A DNA stretch of 64,000 nt from Candidatus Sumerlaeota bacterium. GTDB lineage: Bacteria > Sumerlaeota > Sumerlaeia > Sumerlaeales > Sumerlaeaceae. Numbering within the stretch: the first letter of the stretch is position 1; each line of letters begins with the position of its first letter. Both the position numbers and the translations under genes were made by a program. The stretch spans positions 7,480 through 71,479 of the forward strand of contig JADFCV010000005.1 in the NCBI GenBank assembly GCA_017161655.1, written 5' to 3'. Positions 50,705 to 61,246 of this stretch are shown here, one piece after another. The notes under the pieces are model-generated. The model was not told the origin of the DNA. It ran no database searches and worked only from the letters and a program-made list of their open reading frames with translations.

Positions 50705-51427
50705 TCAATCCTCGCGGGTCTTGGGTCGCAGTCGCCTGTAAAGATCGCGGCGCAAAAAGCGGCCAATGCGCAGCAAGATAGGTGGCTGGTCGAGCGTGGC
50801 GCGCTCCTTCTCTGTCAAGTTTCGTGGGAAGGATTTTGCTTTGATACGCAAAAGATTCCATTCATCAACGAGACAGAAAAACTCAAAACATCTGCGTCCC
50901 CACCAGGAGGTCCCACGCAGGACAGCTGTTTGAAAATCAATCAGTGCTGGGGATCCATCGGGACGAACCAAAATGTTCTTTCGTCGGATATCCCCGTGGG
51001 CGACGCCGCAACGATGAATTTCGCGCAACAGAGCCATTGCCCGCTCGAAGAAATCCGGTCCTAGGACCCCACGAATGTTGCGACGCGGAAGAACTCCGCC
51101 TTCACAAAACGACATCACGAGCCCTGGCGAAGACCTCACTCGGGCCAACAAGTGCGGCACCCCGTCAATTGAGGAGAGTGCCTGAAGAGCCCGCGCTTCC
51201 CGCTGGATCACATAGCGCCCCCACATTCGCCCCAGTATGCCCCTCCCAGAGTAGTCCTTCCAAACAGCTCGCGTGTCCCCCAGGCGCACTAACCACACGT
51301 CAGGCGAAAATGCTGAGTGTCCGCGTTTGAGTTCTTTTTCCACGGAGGATAGGAGCCGGTTTCGCTCGAGCAACGCAGCGGCGCTTTTGCTATCACTGTC
51401 CTGCTCGCAACAATTCACTCTGGCCAT
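50705..51427 (-). CDS. Small protein-kinase-like enzyme (LPS/Kdo kinase, RIO-like)
   Basis: 240 residues from ATG 51427, which overlaps the protease stop by 13 bp. Kinase-like features: VWKDYSGRGILGRMWGRYVIQREARAL, active loop VAHGDIRRKNILVRPDG (about 137-153) and DFQTA in place of DFG. These match the lipopolysaccharide kinase (WaaP/InaA) and related eukaryotic-like folds. No membrane segment. It may phosphorylate an LPS core sugar or a protein. It is the only gene behind the C25 protease on this strand and is probably co-translated. Confidence 0.65.
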   Translation of the reverse strand: MARVNCCEQDSDSKSAAALLERNRLLSSVEKELKRGHSAFSPDVWLVRLGDTRAVWKDYSGRGILGRMWGRYVIQREARALQALSSIDGVPHLLARVRSSPGLVMSFCEGGVLPRRNIRGVLGPDFFERAMALLREIHRCGVAHGDIRRKNILVRPDGSPALIDFQTAVLRGTSWWGRRCFEFFCLVDEWNLLRIKAKSFPRNLTEKERATLDQPPILLRIGRFLRRDLYRRLRPKTRED

Positions 51428-54400
51428 GGCACGCGCTGGAGCGATCCTTTCAAAAATACTTCGCACCAAGGCTCGATGCGGCGGCCCGTATCGCGCTCAG
51501 TGAGCCGATAAGTGAGCACTCTCTCCACCGTTTTCTTTCCCGGCAATTCTTCGATGAACTCCTCAGCGAGGAGATCATTGCGATTGCGTGTGCGGCGGTC
51601 TCCGTAAATCAGCACCCGAACACCATGAGCGGCTCCCTCTCCTTCATTCGCAATCTTCACAGCCAATCGAATCTGCCGCTTCTCACGATCCTCTTGAGAC
51701 AGCGGCAGAATTGATACTCCCAACGGACGAAGTCGATATTTCGTCAAAACCTTCATGCGAATCGTTCGCGTATTATTGTCATAGCGCCGCTCCGCATCTG
51801 TGCTTCCGCACCAGCTCCGAAACATCAGCTCGTGCACGCCCGCATTATCGATGGGATCCCAGCGCACCGTGAGAACAGCGCGTTCCCCGGGCCGAAGATC
51901 GACCGGGATAAACGGACGCAGTACACGTGACTGCAGCGGGGGGGCGCCAGTCGTCGTGCCGTCGTAGGCCTCTACTCGCACATTTCGAGCAACAGCATTT
52001 CCTACGTTTTCGACCACCACGCGGAAGAAAACAGTTTCCCCCTCGACAACAGGGGCCTTGTGGGGCATGATTCCTCCCCCCGGAATAACAAGGTCCGCCA
52101 TGGCCTCTCTGCCTAATACCAAAGGATGACTCAGCGAAATGCGCCGCCCGTCTTCCTCGCTTATTCCTTCTATAAAGAGGCCAGCCGCTTCGTAGTCGGG
52201 GAATTCGAGAAAGGTTCGCCGCAGCTCGATGTCTTGTGTTTGTCCCGGCGCGAGAGCGCTTAGAGTGGTGACGGATTCTTGCGCGATCGTCCCGCTCGTC
52301 TCTATCCACGCCCGCAGATCTCTGATGTGCGTTTTGCCAATGTTTGCGACAGTGCAGGAGAGTTCAGCCGAGGGAGGCTGCATTGTATGCCTGATGCGAA
52401 GCGTGCCAGGAAGAATGCAGAGGGGGGTAGATGTCTCAATGCCGCCCACAACAATGGCAAATGGATTCGGAGGGTCAAGCGAGAGGGGCTGATCAGAACC
52501 GTAACAACGTGCGCTGATGCTTGCCGTCGTTATACCTCCGCGAGCCTCAGCGCTTATGGCTATGCGACGTTTTTCGCGCGGTAGAAAACAGACCAGGTCG
52601 CTTTCTGCAGCGAAATCTTGTCCTTCAAGACGGATGACTGCGTCGCGGATTGGTAGCTCAGAGGTATTTGTGAGATCAAGCCACGCAGTGACAGTCGTCT
52701 TGTTGTTATCGGCAGCTCCGATTTCAACTTCACAATGTTCTAGCCGCAAAGCCTGAGCACCCGCCAGTCCTTTGGCAAACATGCCGCCCTTGGGCTCGAT
52801 GGCCGTTTTCATATTAGGGTCGCCGAGTAAAATGAACATCCGCACCAGGTCAGGCGGGTTGCCCTCAGCAAGGTATCGATACGTTGCCAATGTCAGGGCA
52901 GGACCAAGCGGCTCGATTCGCTCTGCAAAAATCGAGCGAACCAACTCTTGCGAGAAAACTTCGTGGATACTCGCCATACCAGGCCCGGCAGGCACGTAGC
53001 ATGCTATTGCCCCCCCATTTGGTACCCGGAGAAAATCCTCGCTGATGCAGACATTCCAGCGTGGCATCGGATAATCAATTGCCCCACTGTTGCAGGTCAT
53101 GTTCAGCAACACCGGTAAGCGGTCACGATTACGCAACATAAGATTATCAGAATTTTCGCTGTCGCCACCAAACCAGATACGTTGGGTCGACCATACGTTC
53201 GGCGAGCCATGCCCAAAGTACCAGACCACAGAAGCCCCGGTGTTAAAAAGATCTCGAATCTTTCGCGTCATTTCGGGGCTGACCTTAGCCTTTTTTGTCT
53301 CCGCGATTTCTTTCGGGAAGTAGAAGTTGTCCTCCCAGGGTTCCTCTGAGAGCGAGAGGCGCGTGACAGAATAGGAGGGCGGGATGAGTTCGGATATCCG
53401 CTTCGTCGGTGCATCGAACTCCGTGTGGTCTGCCACAAATCCCACGTGGCTTCGCCACTCTGCCTCGCGTCTCTGCTGCTGTTCGTAGTCCTCAAGCTTT
53501 GCCAGGATGTTCTGCAGATCTTTGCTGTTGTTGACCGAGAGCCGGCCTATGAAGACGTCGGCAAGATCATCCTCGCCAAAAATTCGAGTGTACCAATGAT
53601 CCGATGCCCATTGTTCGCCGGTGGGAGTGTTTGGTCGAATGGTGTATGACGGAACGAAATTGATGACGTTATTACGGAACTCATTCTTATAGGCACTCGT
53701 TGCGTCCCCAACGAGCAGGACGTAGCTTGCCGGCGGTTGCCCCGAAGGTGCGTCATAATACCGCGCCGCAAAGTCAATGAAACGCTTGATCGCTTCGGGA
53801 GTCTCTTGTCCGTGAGCAAACTGGTCGTAAATCGTCTGCGTATCGACCAGCAGCACCTTGTGTCCCTCTTTTTCTTTGCGCTGGGCAAATGGCTTCATCC
53901 GTTCGATAAAGTCCGGATGGGCGATAATAATGTAGTCCGCCTGTGTCGCGGTTGAGCGAAGGTCGATTGCGGTTGTCCCAACAGGTTCAAAACTCACCGG
54001 AAGTGCTTGCTCCGGTGTAGTGATCAAATAACGGCGAGGCGAGTCCTCACGTGCGCGGAAATTCAGGACCCATTGCCCATTGTTCGCTTCCTTAATCGTC
54101 GCGGGCACAACCAGGGGTGTTGCACCACCTATATCGAACACAAAAACCCGTCCCGCTCGTTTAGCGAGGGCAACGTTGTATTCCATCGAACGAATTGTGC
54201 GCGTGTCTTCTCGATAGGGTGAGCTTATCTCTGCGGGCAACTCGCTCACTGAGTAAGGGCGAGAATGCCAGATCTCGAAACTGTCGAGGTAAACTTCCGG
54301 CACTTGCCCCCGTAGCTGGTTTCCCATGTGCCTGGCTTGCTGCCCTTCCACCTCGAGCCAGACTGTGAAGCGATTCCCCTGCGCGTGCACCTCATTTTCT

Positions 54401-55869
54401 GGGATGGAGAAAGCTTTGCGTTCATCGTGTTCTGATGCCACAGGGAACCGAAGCACGGATCCGCCATTGATTTGCAAGCAAACGGTCACGCTCGTTGCTG
54501 GCCCCAAATCCTGCACAAAAAGATTCATCACTGCTGGCGAAGCGCGGCCTGTTGGCTGGAAACCTGGTAGGTCGAAAGTGCTCGTAAAGGTGCCGGAAGT
54601 CGGTATCTCGTGCCACACCCACCGATAGCCGAGAATGCTCAGGAACTGATCACTCCGCGTCTGGACTTTTGTATCCTGCTCGATGATCGTTTTCGTCAGA
54701 AACGTAGATGCACTCTCACATGCTTCAGTGGGAGAAACGGGCGGCGTGGAGCGCATGGTCGTGGCACGGCTATTTTCGTCGTAGATAAGCCAGTAAACGT
54801 TTTCGGCCGAGTAGGGCGATGGGTTCTCCGTCCCGTAGAAGAGCAAAACGTCATCGGGCTGGAGTGTGGACGCCTCGCTGTTTGAACCACGTTCCAGCAA
54901 TATCGGAACTTCACGCCCGTTGTTGAAAAGGCGCAGATGTTCTGGTTTCAGCCAGGTTGCCACCACCCCCGAGGATTCTAAGTCGCTCGCGCTTATCCTA
55001 TGAATACCCGGTTGGCGCACGCGGATCCGCATCCGAAAAGGGGACCTATCAAATTCACCAGGAGGGGAACTCACAGGTGCGATCGCACGCGGAATGGCTT
55101 GTTCGGGGACCACGATGTAGCGGTCAACATCCTGAGGATTTGCGACGAGTTTCTGGACGAGCTCTCTGAAAATACCGACGCGGTTACGGGCCCAGAACTT
55201 AATCGCGCTCATATCGCGAATCGGGGCTTGCGGCACAAACGTGAGAGACCCTATCCCACCGGTCACAACCCGATTGCCAAGGCTTCGCGGCTCAAATGTG
55301 AGGGTGTAGGCAGCTATGCGGAAAGTACGCACATAGCCAAGCTCTTCGCTCTTCACTTTGATCAGCCCCAAAGTTGCGGGATCGGTTGTGCCTACCTGAT
55401 CGAGGTCAAGTCGTTCGAGCGTGGCTTTCGAGATTTCACCGCGAGGGACTGCCAGGGGAATCACGATCTTCCCTAGCGCGGCAGCCTCTGGAGCTACCGT
55501 GAATTCGAACTGCAATTCCTGCGGAGTGGCTTTGAGTGTTTTCACTTTGACCTTTGGCGAGGCGAGCTGCGCACGAATGACACCGTCTGCTTCTGCCAGC
55601 CATTCATCGAGACTGGTATCTTTTGGAATGCTATCGAGGGGGTGAATTTCGGCAGGAGTTTGTCGCGCGGGGACGCTGCTTGCCAACCCCTCCTGTTTGA
55701 ACATCAAACATGTGAGCCCAACAATGGCCAGCAGAAACAAGGTGAGAAATCGGCAGGGGCTTTCTTTGTATGGGAAGCTGCTTTGCTGAGCAGAGGCCCG
55801 TGCCACACGCAGCTCTCCGCTCTGTTTCGAAGTGCACGACGCAAGGAAATGACTCTGTCTCGTTTGCAT
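51415..55869 (-). CDS. Large secreted cysteine protease, gingipain family (C25)
   Basis: 1484 residues. A signal-anchor segment (FLTLFLLAIVGLTCLMF, about 41-57) follows a 40-residue basic leader. The peptidase C25 domain lies roughly at 660-1000: YIIIAHPDFIERMKPFAQRK opening, YVLLVGDATSAY, ADVFIGRLSV, catalytic histidine in VWYFGHGSPNVWS (~885) and catalytic cysteine in LLNMTCNSGAIDYP (~925). The C-terminal ~400 residues are several Ig/CARDB-like beta domains. I see no type IX secretion C-terminal domain, so export route is open. Gingipain-like domains in non-Bacteroidetes often occur in surface-protein processing and PorU-like sortases. Followed closely by the small kinase. Confidence 0.8.
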   Translation of the reverse strand: MQTRQSHFLASCTSKQSGELRVARASAQQSSFPYKESPCRFLTLFLLAIVGLTCLMFKQEGLASSVPARQTPAEIHPLDSIPKDTSLDEWLAEADGVIRAQLASPKVKVKTLKATPQELQFEFTVAPEAAALGKIVIPLAVPRGEISKATLERLDLDQVGTTDPATLGLIKVKSEELGYVRTFRIAAYTLTFEPRSLGNRVVTGGIGSLTFVPQAPIRDMSAIKFWARNRVGIFRELVQKLVANPQDVDRYIVVPEQAIPRAIAPVSSPPGEFDRSPFRMRIRVRQPGIHRISASDLESSGVVATWLKPEHLRLFNNGREVPILLERGSNSEASTLQPDDVLLFYGTENPSPYSAENVYWLIYDENSRATTMRSTPPVSPTEACESASTFLTKTIIEQDTKVQTRSDQFLSILGYRWVWHEIPTSGTFTSTFDLPGFQPTGRASPAVMNLFVQDLGPATSVTVCLQINGGSVLRFPVASEHDERKAFSIPENEVHAQGNRFTVWLEVEGQQARHMGNQLRGQVPEVYLDSFEIWHSRPYSVSELPAEISSPYREDTRTIRSMEYNVALAKRAGRVFVFDIGGATPLVVPATIKEANNGQWVLNFRAREDSPRRYLITTPEQALPVSFEPVGTTAIDLRSTATQADYIIIAHPDFIERMKPFAQRKEKEGHKVLLVDTQTIYDQFAHGQETPEAIKRFIDFAARYYDAPSGQPPASYVLLVGDATSAYKNEFRNNVINFVPSYTIRPNTPTGEQWASDHWYTRIFGEDDLADVFIGRLSVNNSKDLQNILAKLEDYEQQQRREAEWRSHVGFVADHTEFDAPTKRISELIPPSYSVTRLSLSEEPWEDNFYFPKEIAETKKAKVSPEMTRKIRDLFNTGASVVWYFGHGSPNVWSTQRIWFGGDSENSDNLMLRNRDRLPVLLNMTCNSGAIDYPMPRWNVCISEDFLRVPNGGAIACYVPAGPGMASIHEVFSQELVRSIFAERIEPLGPALTLATYRYLAEGNPPDLVRMFILLGDPNMKTAIEPKGGMFAKGLAGAQALRLEHCEVEIGAADNNKTTVTAWLDLTNTSELPIRDAVIRLEGQDFAAESDLVCFLPREKRRIAISAEARGGITTASISARCYGSDQPLSLDPPNPFAIVVGGIETSTPLCILPGTLRIRHTMQPPSAELSCTVANIGKTHIRDLRAWIETSGTIAQESVTTLSALAPGQTQDIELRRTFLEFPDYEAAGLFIEGISEEDGRRISLSHPLVLGREAMADLVIPGGGIMPHKAPVVEGETVFFRVVVENVGNAVARNVRVEAYDGTTTGAPPLQSRVLRPFIPVDLRPGERAVLTVRWDPIDNAGVHELMFRSWCGSTDAERRYDNNTRTIRMKVLTKYRLRPLGVSILPLSQEDREKRQIRLAVKIANEGEGAAHGVRVLIYGDRRTRNRNDLLAEEFIEELPGKKTVERVLTYRLTERDTGRRIEPWCEVFLKGSLQRVPWPE

Positions 55870-55913
55870 GCTTGAACTCTCTACCTCACGACAGTGTTAG
55901 TCGCACTAGAGTC

Positions 55914-57080
55914 ATGCAATCACAACCTTTTCAACAGCCGCTTCGAATTTTGCATTTGATGTCCACCTACCGGTGGACCGGCGTCGCCGAGCCAGCGGTA
56001 AGCTTAGCGCTTTGGCACCAAAAAATGGGGCATGAAACGTGGGTTGCAGGCATTTGGGGACGATCCTTTGAGGAAACAGCTGCGGCTCGGGGGGCTCGCC
56101 TAGCTTTGGAAATCCCCTTGTCACTCGATTACAATCCATGGGTGCAATGGAAGCTCATTGAGCGAGTACGTGAGTTTTGCCTCAGCCGCAACATTCATGT
56201 GGTCCATGCGCATCTTCCTCACGATCATTGGGTTGCAGCGTTGGCGCTACGCCCACTAGGTCAGCGGCGTCCTCTTCTTATTCGCACATATCATCGCTAT
56301 GAGCCTCCAAGGCAGGATCCCCTCCATCGATGGCTCTTCTGCACAGCGACGGATGCAGTGATGACCGTGTCCTCTGCACAGCGCGACATGTTACAGCGGG
56401 TTTACCCCGGCGTACCTACATACCTGGTTTTTGGGGGTGTTGATCCAGATCGCTTCATCTTCAATCATGAAGGTCGCCTCAAGGTTCGCGCCGATATGGG
56501 AGAAAAGCCTGACTCGATGGTCGCCGGCCTCGTTGCACATCTTGGCTACAATCGTGGAATCCAGTGGCTTTTGGCGGCTGCCCCGGCGGTCCTCGCTACC
56601 GTGTCAAACGCGGTGATTTGGATTGTCGGGCAAGGGGAGCTACGCGACTTCCTGCGCCGGGAACTGCGCAAGTCATGTTATCGACGGCGAGTGTTGCTTG
56701 CGGGGTATCGCACCGACGATCTTCCCGACACATATTCCGCGATGGACGTCGGCTTGCTTTTAGGTCTCGGGAGTGAGGGAAGCGCTCGGGCAGCTTTGGA
56801 AGCAATGGCCACGTCGCGGCCCGTCGTTGCTATTAAGAAAGGGGCTCTCATTGACACGATTACCCACGGTGTCGATGGCCTTCTTGTTCAAGAAAACGAC
56901 GTCTCAAGCCTTAGCCAGGCCCTTATCGAGCTTCTCGGCAATCCTCAACGAGCTCGCGAAATGGGGATAGCTGCACGCGAAAAAATCGTTTCGCAGTTTA
57001 CAGAGCGTCAGCGGGCAGAGCGAACGCTCGATGTGTATCAAGAGACGCTCGCCAGGGTGAGAATGAGGGGAGATAGCTAA
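55914..57080 (+). CDS. Glycosyltransferase, GT4 family
   Basis: 388 residues from ATG 55914 (the longer frame runs into the divergent protease start). GT-B fold: RILHLMSTYRWTGVAEPAVS at the N-terminus, VVHAHLPHDHWVAAL, YLVFGGVDPDRF, and the C-terminal GSEGSARAALEAMATSRPVVA with the EX7E motif (E...E in EGSARAALE). Family 1/4 transferases add hexoses, heptoses or similar to lipid A cores and surface glycans. Divergent from the protease; its own partner genes are not in the window, so the glycan is unknown. Confidence 0.85.
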   Translation: MQSQPFQQPLRILHLMSTYRWTGVAEPAVSLALWHQKMGHETWVAGIWGRSFEETAAARGARLALEIPLSLDYNPWVQWKLIERVREFCLSRNIHVVHAHLPHDHWVAALALRPLGQRRPLLIRTYHRYEPPRQDPLHRWLFCTATDAVMTVSSAQRDMLQRVYPGVPTYLVFGGVDPDRFIFNHEGRLKVRADMGEKPDSMVAGLVAHLGYNRGIQWLLAAAPAVLATVSNAVIWIVGQGELRDFLRRELRKSCYRRRVLLAGYRTDDLPDTYSAMDVGLLLGLGSEGSARAALEAMATSRPVVAIKKGALIDTITHGVDGLLVQENDVSSLSQALIELLGNPQRAREMGIAAREKIVSQFTERQRAERTLDVYQETLARVRMRGDS

Positions 57081-58987
57081 TCTAATATAGGGACGTTCGC
57101 AACTTCCTCAAGTTGTTGCCTGCTGATGGGGCCATGGCGCAAAATGCGGTAGGGTTTCTCCACAACCGAAAGCACTGTCGAGGCTGGTTGATCGCCACTC
57201 CGCCCTGCATCGACAATAACGTGCACATTAGTCCCCAGCTGAGCCACGATTTCTTCGGCGACACGTGCTGCTGGCTGACCGCTGAGATTTGCACTCGTCG
57301 TTGCAATGGGACGTCCCACCATGCTCAGGATTGCCAGCGCCACATAATGATCAGGCATTCGAATTCCGATGGAATCGTCGGGCGCAAGCGAGGCGAAAAC
57401 GTTTGGGTGTCGTCGAAAAACAATCGTCAAAGGTCCCGGCCAGAATTTTTCCATCAAAGCGGGGACCCCTTCCGGTATCTCTTTCACCACGTAACGCAAC
57501 TGCGCAATTGAGTGAATGAGCAGGGCAATTGCACGCGTTCGCTCTCGCCCTTTAACTTCATAAAGACGTTCCAGAGCTGCAACGTTTGTTGCGTCCACTC
57601 CTAACCCATAAACCGTTTCTGTGGGGAAAGCGACGAGTTTACCTTCAAGCAACGAATCGGCGGCTTCCTCGATGACATCCAGCGGAGGGTTTTGTGGATC
57701 GCATTTCAGAACCAAAGGTGTTTTTGCGTCGTTTTCGTTCCAATCCATCTTGTCGGAGCTTACACATTCCGCGCGGAGCGGAGTCCCTTCTTTAGCCGGA
57801 GGCTCCGAGGGCGGTTTACTCTTCAGAATGACTGGCTCTGGATTTGTCTCATGTTTCTCCGTTGCCGCAGCAAGTCCTCGTTGCTTAGAAGCCAATTTCT
57901 CCTGAAGAGCTTTTACTTGCTCGACATCGATCTCAACTGGTGGTGGGGATGCGGCCGCTTTGTCTGGCTCAGGCTCGTTTGGCAGCATCTCCTCGCGAAG
58001 CGACAGTTCCGCAAGCCGTACCGCAATCTTATCCGCAGTCACACCAAACTCTGCAAGAATCGTAGCCGCCAACGAGTCACTCTGCTGGGCCATTCCCTCA
58101 AGAAAATCTACAGTCGTCAAAGACCGACGACTACGGGATCGCGCAATGCGCTTCGAATGAGCCACAAGTTCCGTCGCTTCCTCGCTAGGAGCAAATGTCG
58201 CGACCGGCTGAACATCGCCCGGAGGAAGTGAAGCAAGAACACGGTCCACGAGCGCCTCCAGGGCAATGTCCATGGCGCGCAGCAATTCATTGCCCGCGCA
58301 CTCGCGAAACTCGGCAATTGCCGCAAGATAATGCAGAGGCGTCACGCTTGCGTGTTGACGCTCATGAGCAAGATTTCGAGCCCGTGAGATGATCTGCCTG
58401 AGCTCGTGCGAAAAATCTAGTGATGGCTGTTTGACAATTCCTGCAGGTTTACGGACCTCCTCACGAAGTCGCGGCCGAAAATCGTTTGCTAGCCGCTCCA
58501 GCCACTCTGCGTCTTCCTCACTAAATTTGCTGCGTGCACGTCCACGCCGAGCCTCCGTGGGTTCTGTTTTCCAGGCATCAGCTTCGGCCGCCACGCTCGC
58601 CTCGGTTGGCAAAACGATCTTCGAAAGCCAGCGGACCACCGATTCTGGAGTAGAAGGCGCAAGAATGGCGAGAGGAGCCTCGGCGTTTTCCTCCCTTGGG
58701 CCGAACCGATTCACTTCGTTTCCGTGGATGACAGCCAGCACAGCTCCATGTACATGCCCCGCCACGATTCGCGCTAGAATCGCTTCGGCATCATCCAGGC
58801 ATAAGAACAGTGCCGGCCCGTCCTTCTCAGCACGACGAAGAAACTCGAGAAGAGCATGGCAGCGCTGAATAGGATCAGCGACAAGAGGCTTCGGGCGAAA
58901 ACCGGCCTCTCTCAGCTCGCGCAGAAGTCGCTCACGCACATGCTTAGGTACGCTCTGATTTGCCAGGAACACCAATGATGGGTGCAC
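57077..58987 (-). CDS. Three-part fusion: RpiB-like (inactive) + Clp N-domain + TsaC/Sua5 threonylcarbamoyl-AMP synthase
   Basis: About 636 residues from GTG 58987, chosen because AAGGAG lies exactly 8 nt upstream and because the N-terminus then aligns with RpiB. Residues ~1-130 resemble ribose-5-phosphate isomerase B (VFLANQSVPKHVRERLLREL; NRFGPREENAEAPLAIL parallels the R.HNDANVL helix), but the DH and CGTG catalytic motifs are missing. Residues ~190-330 hold two Clp_N repeats (LAHERQHASVTPLHYLAAI and RSRRSLTTVDFLEGMAQQ). A Pro/Glu-rich linker follows. Residues ~435-636 form TsaC/Sua5: LVAFPTETVYGLGVDATN, KGRERTRAIALLIHS, TTSANLSGQPA. TsaC makes threonylcarbamoyl-AMP for tRNA t6A37. Convergent with the GT4 gene (overlap 4 bp). 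Confidence 0.8.
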   Translation of the reverse strand: MHPSLVFLANQSVPKHVRERLLRELREAGFRPKPLVADPIQRCHALLEFLRRAEKDGPALFLCLDDAEAILARIVAGHVHGAVLAVIHGNEVNRFGPREENAEAPLAILAPSTPESVVRWLSKIVLPTEASVAAEADAWKTEPTEARRGRARSKFSEEDAEWLERLANDFRPRLREEVRKPAGIVKQPSLDFSHELRQIISRARNLAHERQHASVTPLHYLAAIAEFRECAGNELLRAMDIALEALVDRVLASLPPGDVQPVATFAPSEEATELVAHSKRIARSRSRRSLTTVDFLEGMAQQSDSLAATILAEFGVTADKIAVRLAELSLREEMLPNEPEPDKAAASPPPVEIDVEQVKALQEKLASKQRGLAAATEKHETNPEPVILKSKPPSEPPAKEGTPLRAECVSSDKMDWNENDAKTPLVLKCDPQNPPLDVIEEAADSLLEGKLVAFPTETVYGLGVDATNVAALERLYEVKGRERTRAIALLIHSIAQLRYVVKEIPEGVPALMEKFWPGPLTIVFRRHPNVFASLAPDDSIGIRMPDHYVALAILSMVGRPIATTSANLSGQPAARVAEEIVAQLGTNVHVIVDAGRSGDQPASTVLSVVEKPYRILRHGPISRQQLEEVANVPILD

Positions 58988-59464: not shown

Positions 59465-61246
59465 ATGAAATCTGGTCGTTCTTCGCGTTCGAGTGAAATC
59501 GCGAGTCTGATCGATCTGGGCAGGGAGCGAGGACACCTGACCTACGATGAAATTTACGACAGTCTCCCCGAAGACGCGACGGTTCAGGACATGGAGTCGC
59601 TGCTCGAGGAGCTTGAGCAGCTCGATATCGAAGTCTACGATGACAAGGATATCGCGGCCGGTGTGGCGCGGGCCGAAGAAGACCTGGAAGAGGAGCTCGA
59701 TCCGCAAAAGGCTCTCGAGCTCGAAGGAATCCACGAGGAAGACGCTGACGGGTCTAAGATCGACGATCCAGTACGGCTCTACCTCATGGAGATGGGGAAG
59801 GTTCCGCTCCTTACTCGCGAAGAGGAAGTCACGCTGGCGAAGGAAATCGAAAAAGGCCGACACGAAATCACGGCAGCAATCGCGCGTGCCAGCGCAACGG
59901 CAAACGAGCTACGAAAGCTTCGCACCCGCGTGGAATCTGGTGCCGTCAATCTGGACGACATTCTTCGCCCCCACATCGACGAGTCGGATCCGGAAGTCCG
60001 GCAGCGCTACATGCACCACGTTCTGGACAACATTGATAAAATCCTCCAACACTATGCAGAGATATTCGCGCATTTGGATCAACTTGAAGATCCTGAGCTA
60101 ACAGACCGCAAACGCGCGAATCTGCATAAACAGATCGAAAAATGTCGTCGCGAGATCCTCGACCACCTGCTGGCAATCGACTTGAATTTTACGGTCATCG
60201 AGGAGATCGCCTCTCACATCAAAGAAGTCTATCAGCAGATCGAAGAGGCGAATAATCAGATTCGCGAGGTCGTGATGAGCACGATGCTCGGCGAAGACGA
60301 CCTGCGCCGTATTGTGAAAAAAACCCGCCGGAACTCACCTGAAGCCAAAGCCCTCGAGAAAAAATACGGCCTCACACTCGACGAGCTTATTAAACTCGAC
60401 AAGCGGGTGCGTGAAGCCCAGCGCACAGTAAAAAAATTAGAAAAGGAAGCCGGCAACACCTTCGAAGAACTGGCCATCATCGTCAAGGAGATCGAAGCCG
60501 GCGAACAGATCGCGCGTGCGGCGAAAACCAAAGTCGTCGAGGCCAATCTTCGACTCGTGGTTTCGATCGCAAAGCGTTATACCAACCGTGGACTTCAGTT
60601 CCTGGATCTCATCCAGGAAGGCAACATCGGCCTTATGCGCGCGGTGGACAAATTCGAGTATCAGCGTGGTTACAAGTTCTCTACCTATGCCACATGGTGG
60701 ATTCGGCAGGCCGTAACACGCGCCATTGCTGATCAGGCGCGCACCATTCGCATTCCTGTCCACATGATTGAAACGATCAATAAACTTACTCGCACTAGCC
60801 GTCAGCTTGTGCAGGAACTCGGTCGCGAACCTACCCCCGAAGAGTTGGCCCAGCGCATCGGTCTACCTGCTGAGAAAATTCGACGTGTACTAAAAATTGC
60901 TCAACAGCCGATCTCCCTTGAGACTCCGATCGGTGAGGATGGAGATTCGACGTTCGGCGACTTCATTAGTGATCCGGACGCGGTCGATCCTGCTGATCAG
61001 GCTGCCCAAATGCTCAAAGCCCAACGCATCGACGAAATCCTGAAGACGCTCAGCGACCGCGAGGAGAAAGTGCTCCGCCTACGTTTCGGTATCGGCAATA
61101 ATGACTTCCCTCGAACGCTAGAGGAAGTTGGTGCCATTTTTAACGTCACTCGTGAGCGCGTGCGTCAGATCGAAACAAAAGCACTCAACAAGCTGCGCCA
61201 TCCGAGCCGGCGTGCTTTGCTAGTCGAACTTTACGAACAGCTTTAA
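59465..61246 (+). CDS. rpoD: Primary RNA polymerase sigma factor (sigma-70)
   Basis: 593 residues. Region 1.1 ([20 protein letters not shown]), region 1.2 ([21 protein letters not shown]), non-conserved region, region 2 ([60 protein letters not shown]), region 3 and region 4 ([40 protein letters not shown]) are all complete, marking a housekeeping rather than alternative sigma. It directs most promoters. AAAGGGG lies 13-14 nt before the ATG. Terminator directly follows. Confidence 0.98.

Follow-up and report, generated by a model that had tools for sequence, protein, structure and literature searches.

On the minus strand of a 64,000-nucleotide stretch of Candidatus Sumerlaeota DNA (contig JADFCV010000005.1; hereafter, the window), a single gene joins the tRNA-modification enzyme TsaC to two further domains, which raises the questions of what these domains are, how they came to be attached to TsaC and what keeps them there. 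The gene is one uninterrupted and complete frame of 636 aa at 57077-58987, as a sequence-only reading of the window had held. It opens with a GTG at 58987, which we kept as the start because AAGGAG lies upstream at the normal distance, and closes with a TAG at 57077-57079. From the N terminus, it encodes a degenerate PurE (AIRC) domain (58598-58987, residues 1-130), a Clp_N domain of two repeats (57962-58411, residues about 193-342), a charged and proline-rich linker (57698-57961, residues about 343-430) and a TsaC (L-threonylcarbamoyladenylate synthase) domain (57098-57697, residues about 431-630). The order of PurE-like, Clp_N and TsaC domains, which the earlier reading had thought worth seeking in relatives, is shared by six further genomes of the host's family, Sumerlaeaceae, one of which has it divided between two contigs, and as these are independent genomes, a misassembly or frameshift is ruled out.

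On the plus strand, the gene is flanked by a divergent rpoD-type sigma factor gene (59465-61246), present beside the fusion also in G001, G002 and G005, and by a convergent glycosyltransferase-like gene (55770-57080) overlapping its end by 4 bases, both named from sequence without a family-library scan. A 1484-aa secreted protein encoded on the minus strand at 51415-55869 resembles C25 (gingipain-type) peptidases, and a similar long protein is found near the fusion in G002 and in Ca. Sumerlaea chitinivorans BY40 (G005, Sumerlaeota), the nearest complete relative.

Identity of the N-terminal and TsaC domains

The N-terminal domain had been read as an RpiB devoid of its catalytic residues. The loss of catalytic residues stands and the name does not: profile comparison identifies a degenerate PurE (AIR carboxylase/N5-CAIR mutase), in which the motifs GSxSD, SAHRTP and AGGAAHLPG have become NQSVP, DPIQRC and LDDAEAILAR. 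The first 130 residues, 25% identical to the domain of BY40, give no family match in Pfam or NCBIfam when searched alone, AIRC included. When a profile of the N-terminal domains of the seven family members was compared with PDB, the top 19 matches were all PurE (best E 5.8e-8) and no RpiB was listed. With hhalign, the family profile matched PurE at 99.3% probability and a profile of the host, G001 and G005 domains only at 94.7% (E 5.8e-8), in comparison with 0.4-0.6% for the host's own two RpiB proteins. Pfam AIRC matches five other family members directly (E 0.011 to 8e-7), and homologues across the class carry an unmistakable PurE at the same position (e.g. GSRTD...SAHRTPE...AGGSAHLPG), scoring up to about 200 bits against PF00731.

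That a dead RpiB was fused to Clp_N and TsaC has in its favor a Rossmann-like topology common to both enzymes and the fourth rank of RpiB in a fold search, headed by PurE, with a low-confidence single-sequence model of the domain (pLDDT 61, alternating strands and helices), in which no match fell below E 0.001. The hhalign probabilities and the intact PurE in the N-terminal place of the class homologues leave this reading a negligible probability, and RpiB is rejected as the identity of the domain. No Pfam match to RpiB (PF02502) was found in the fusion protein, and the Asp-His and CGTG-type motifs of RpiB are absent from its sequence; the first impression is probably explained by PurE and RpiB both having alpha/beta Rossmann-like folds. 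In the second of the two separate host RpiB proteins (L034, G000:C17:52114-52527), the CGTG-type motif is altered to DGAGYPSG, possibly reflecting a different function.

The claim of a complete TsaC/Sua5 domain was confirmed over the last 200 residues (Pfam E 5e-53; full-length TIGR00057 match of 191.7 bits vs. a cut-off of 123.2), with no SUA5 domain. The KxR/SxN tetrad (K479, R481, S565 and N567) and the threonine-site T/S/R (T456, S603 and R617) are present, so that all seven family residues of PMC10321239 are found, spaced as at the Pa-Sua5 positions. The host genome (3.1 Mb, 93% complete) contains one separate PurE with intact motifs and, besides it, a longer AIRC protein of the LarB type, and no PurK over the cut-off. 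Of the stand-alone genes that the earlier reading would look for, rpiB thus occurs, in two copies, and tsaC does not: beside the fused TsaC we found only a HypF-sized protein. As t6A is a near-universal modification and the genome has no other TsaC besides HypF, the fused TsaC is very likely catalytically active. Its C-terminal domain would use threonine, bicarbonate and ATP to produce threonylcarbamoyl-AMP for t6A37 of tRNA.

Origin and three states in Sumerlaeota

We compared 40 relatives (38 belong to the class, another to the phylum only and one to neither), which nearly exhausts the Sumerlaeota in the genome collection used. Of the 14 families of the class, 11-12 have a PurE-TsaC fusion, f8 (G014) being counted as probable, and unfused genes are found in G009, G018 (f3), G011 (f5) and G004; the incomplete genomes G014 and G027 have fused-type pieces at contig ends. 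In a quick TsaC tree, with G007 on a long branch, the fused copies all group in one clade with the unfused ones of f3 and f5 (SH-aLRT 96), and a second clade holds the separate Sua5 copies (98).

The fusions fall into three states. In state A (six genomes: G010, G012, G024, G019, G028 and G030), both domains keep their catalytic residues and are the sole PurE and the sole TsaC, and there is no PurK. In state B (eight genomes: the host, G001, G005, G008, G015, G016, G017 and G022), the PurE motifs are lost, TsaC is intact and PurK is again missing; a separate PurE is present in seven of the eight, the exception being G017 (82% complete), and in G008 a further, divergent TsaC-like frame lacks the KxR motif. 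In state C (14 genomes), the PurE motifs and the TsaC tetrad are both lost, and the dead fusion stands beside separate PurE and Sua5: an intact second Sua5 was found in 12 of the 14 (exceptions G036, 80% complete, and G007, 66% complete) and PurK likewise in 12 (exceptions G013 and G007). State C comprises five genomes of f13 (G021, G029, G031, G033 and G036), five of f7 (G013, G026, G032, G034 and G038) and four of the host's family (G002, G003, G006 and G007), and loss of TsaC catalysis thus happened at least twice on separate branches, in f13 with f7 and in part of the host's family. In the fused sole PurE of f12 (L011, L014 and L020; no PurK), Ala replaces the His that class I PurE has in AGGAAHLPG, a replacement seen in three state A genomes (G019, G028 and G030). 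Class II PurE also has Ala at this position, and the fused PurE of f12 may be a PurK-independent carboxylase.

The earlier idea that neighboring genes had fused was right in kind and wrong in the partners, the ancestral pair being purE-tsaC and not a set of rpiB, ywlE and ywlC. In G039, also of Sumerlaeota, purK, purE and sua5 are separate neighboring genes; in five families of other phyla, tsaC lies next to purE on the same strand, the spacing ranging from a gap of some 44 bases to an overlap of some 22; and in G010 and G027 the gene immediately upstream of the fusion is purH. Taken together, these arrangements point to a purine gene cluster as the probable source of the fusion. The pairs outside the phylum (L221 in G044, L222 in G070, L223 in G104, L224 in G123 and L225 in G133) often overlap. 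Among the matches listed from 106 or so genomes, no fused PurE-TsaC was seen outside the phylum, and the adjacent pairs there likely represent the pre-fusion state; early in the Sumerlaeota class, such a pair would have fused in frame. We found no description of the purE-tsaC gene pair in open full text, so a pair that recurs in other phyla is apparently undescribed.

A possible link through CO2 or bicarbonate, which both ancestral activities use, is attractive; intact fusions are found only where PurK is missing. PurK over the cut-off is present in none of the six genomes with an intact, sole PurE, in none of the eight with a dead PurE and intact TsaC, and in 12 of the 14 with both dead; PurE without PurK depends on high CO2 (PMC3261824), and TsaC takes CO2 or bicarbonate (PMC5951830). 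On these grounds, the fusion could have brought together two enzymes that both use CO2/bicarbonate, as a metabolic pairing in cells lacking PurK, and the host gene would retain the TsaC half. The pattern reflects few independent events, however, with about two clades of double loss, and such a pairing leaves the retention of the dead domains unexplained; as the full explanation, we regard it as quite improbable.

Selection on the dead domains and the Clp_N insert

We computed dN/dS for state B and C proteins, each pair taken from within one genus. Dead PurE domains gave values of 0.03-0.25 and fused TsaC 0.055-0.16; in several pairs dS approaches or exceeds 1, so the values are rough, while their direction is clear. 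In the three state C pairs, dN of the dead TsaC was each time lower than that of the TsaC domain of the separate active Sua5 (0.050 vs. 0.173, 0.159 vs. 0.249 and 0.090 vs. 0.191), and in f13 and f7 the rate of the dead fused domains is similar to that of their active, separate counterparts, or lower. The dead domains are thus under purifying selection about as strong as that on separate active copies, or stronger, and what is being conserved is something besides the lost catalysis. In all 10 fused TsaC copies of f13 and f7, the SxN motif of the ATP site reads NxS/A/T (SAN having become NAS, NAA or NAT), and the T/S/R of the threonine site are retained in every one; the loci are L021, L022, L023, L025, L026, L028, L029, L030, L032 and L165. 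That two dead enzymes are still strongly conserved in the relatives suggests some non-enzymatic job. We tentatively put forward, as a serious possibility, that the Sumerlaeota PurE-TsaC fusion has a conserved function of this kind, e.g. sensing threonine, a purine intermediate or the CO2 status, or serving as a scaffold for t6A synthesis.

These rates also bear on whether the PurE remnant and Clp_N are functionless passive leftovers and TsaC alone matters. The catalytic residues of PurE are gone, and between the host and G001 the PurE-like domain is the fastest diverging part of the protein, with dN of 0.59 against 0.18 for TsaC, in an own-genus pair whose dS is saturated. Against this stand the frame and length of the domain, kept throughout the host's family with a bootstrap dN/dS of 0.10-0.39, and the f13 and f7 domains, equally dead and as slow as, or slower than, active separate copies. 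On balance, we consider passive persistence unlikely.

Clp_N (PF02861) was found with its two repeats, as the earlier reading had it, in two stretches scoring 31.1 bits against a Pfam cut-off of 20.7; a fold search with a weak single-sequence model placed N-domains of ClpC at the top, none below E 0.001. All seven Sumerlaeaceae fusions sampled carry the insert, weakly so in G007, and no fusion of another family of the class does, so that it lies outside the core function. Leaving aside G007, which is too divergent, the inserts are more alike among themselves than to the N-domains of the host Clp ATPases, so a single insertion is likely.

Clp_N might couple TsaC to ClpC/ClpP, e.g. by phospho-arginine-dependent delivery or regulated degradation. 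The domain itself is confirmed, and the host has two Clp ATPases with N-domains as well as a gene for a McsB-like ATP-guanido phosphotransferase (L197, G000:C11:370929-371525), here in a non-Firmicute. ClpC contacts phospho-arginine through the glutamates E32 and E106 (PMC12583610). At the equivalent positions the fusion protein has Leu and Val, both are replaced in most family members too, and the first glutamate is kept in G006 only, one of seven; Clp_N is, moreover, missing from the fusions outside Sumerlaeaceae. The phospho-arginine link drawn in the earlier reading is weakened by these replacements, despite the McsB-like kinase, and a phospho-arginine role of the domain is not supported by its residues; coupling to the Clp machinery as a whole appears very doubtful. 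A docking role is plausible.

We therefore favor, as a probable account of the whole, that the gene encodes the cell's TsaC with a PurE remnant derived from a purE-tsaC pair and a once-inserted Clp_N docking module. The separate PurE would have made a loss of PurE catalysis in the fusion protein possible, and the PurE fold would have been kept, most likely as an oligomerization or ligand-binding scaffold. PurE itself forms octamers (PMC11451730), and the PurE-like domain here is so divergent that oligomerization may be lost. In the host's family, the linker would then have received Clp_N in a single event, as a module for protein docking. From the conserved residues and the lack of another TsaC besides HypF, we infer TC-AMP synthesis with more confidence than the scaffold and docking roles; a function beyond it would be that of a scaffold or ligand-sensing pseudoenzyme, and the models of the domains are single-sequence models of low confidence.

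Comparison with known systems

In open full text, we found no description of a PurE-TsaC/YrdC/Sua5 fusion or operon, nor of a protein with the order PurE-like, Clp_N and TsaC, in agreement with the earlier claim that none was known; the TsaC-family papers examined mention fusions to SUA5 and Kae1-like domains only. One polypeptide here unites purine synthesis and a universal tRNA modification, and one phylum shows a natural series from a bifunctional enzyme through a half-dead to a fully dead but conserved protein, by which the role of such pseudoenzymes becomes directly testable.

Like single-domain TsaC/YrdC (TIGR00057, PF01300), the fusion has all the KxR/SxN and T/S/R residues and is the sole such protein besides HypF, but it adds a 430-residue N-terminal extension of PurE-like and Clp_N domains. 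Its N-terminal domain is homologous to class I PurE, the N5-CAIR mutase (PF00731), and fusions of the class have an intact class I-like PurE in this place, whereas the host protein lacks all three catalytic motifs and the genome has a separate, active-looking PurE. Sua5 likewise combines TsaC with an additional domain; in the fusion the added domains lie N-terminal to TsaC and bear no relation to SUA5, and Sua5 falls in a different clade. HypF and TobZ also join a TsaC-like domain to a partner, which there is Kae1-like, the fusion differing in partner and chemistry. Methanobacterial PurE-PurE' (PMC3261824) likewise joins PurE to another domain in organisms that lack PurK, but that domain is a second PurE there and TsaC here. 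Finally, the Clp_N-type fold is shared with the ClpC2 C-terminal domain and plastid ClpT, which lack the AAA+ motor and, unlike the fusion, are not attached to a metabolic enzyme. The fusion is thus a TsaC of undescribed architecture with an unusual evolutionary series.
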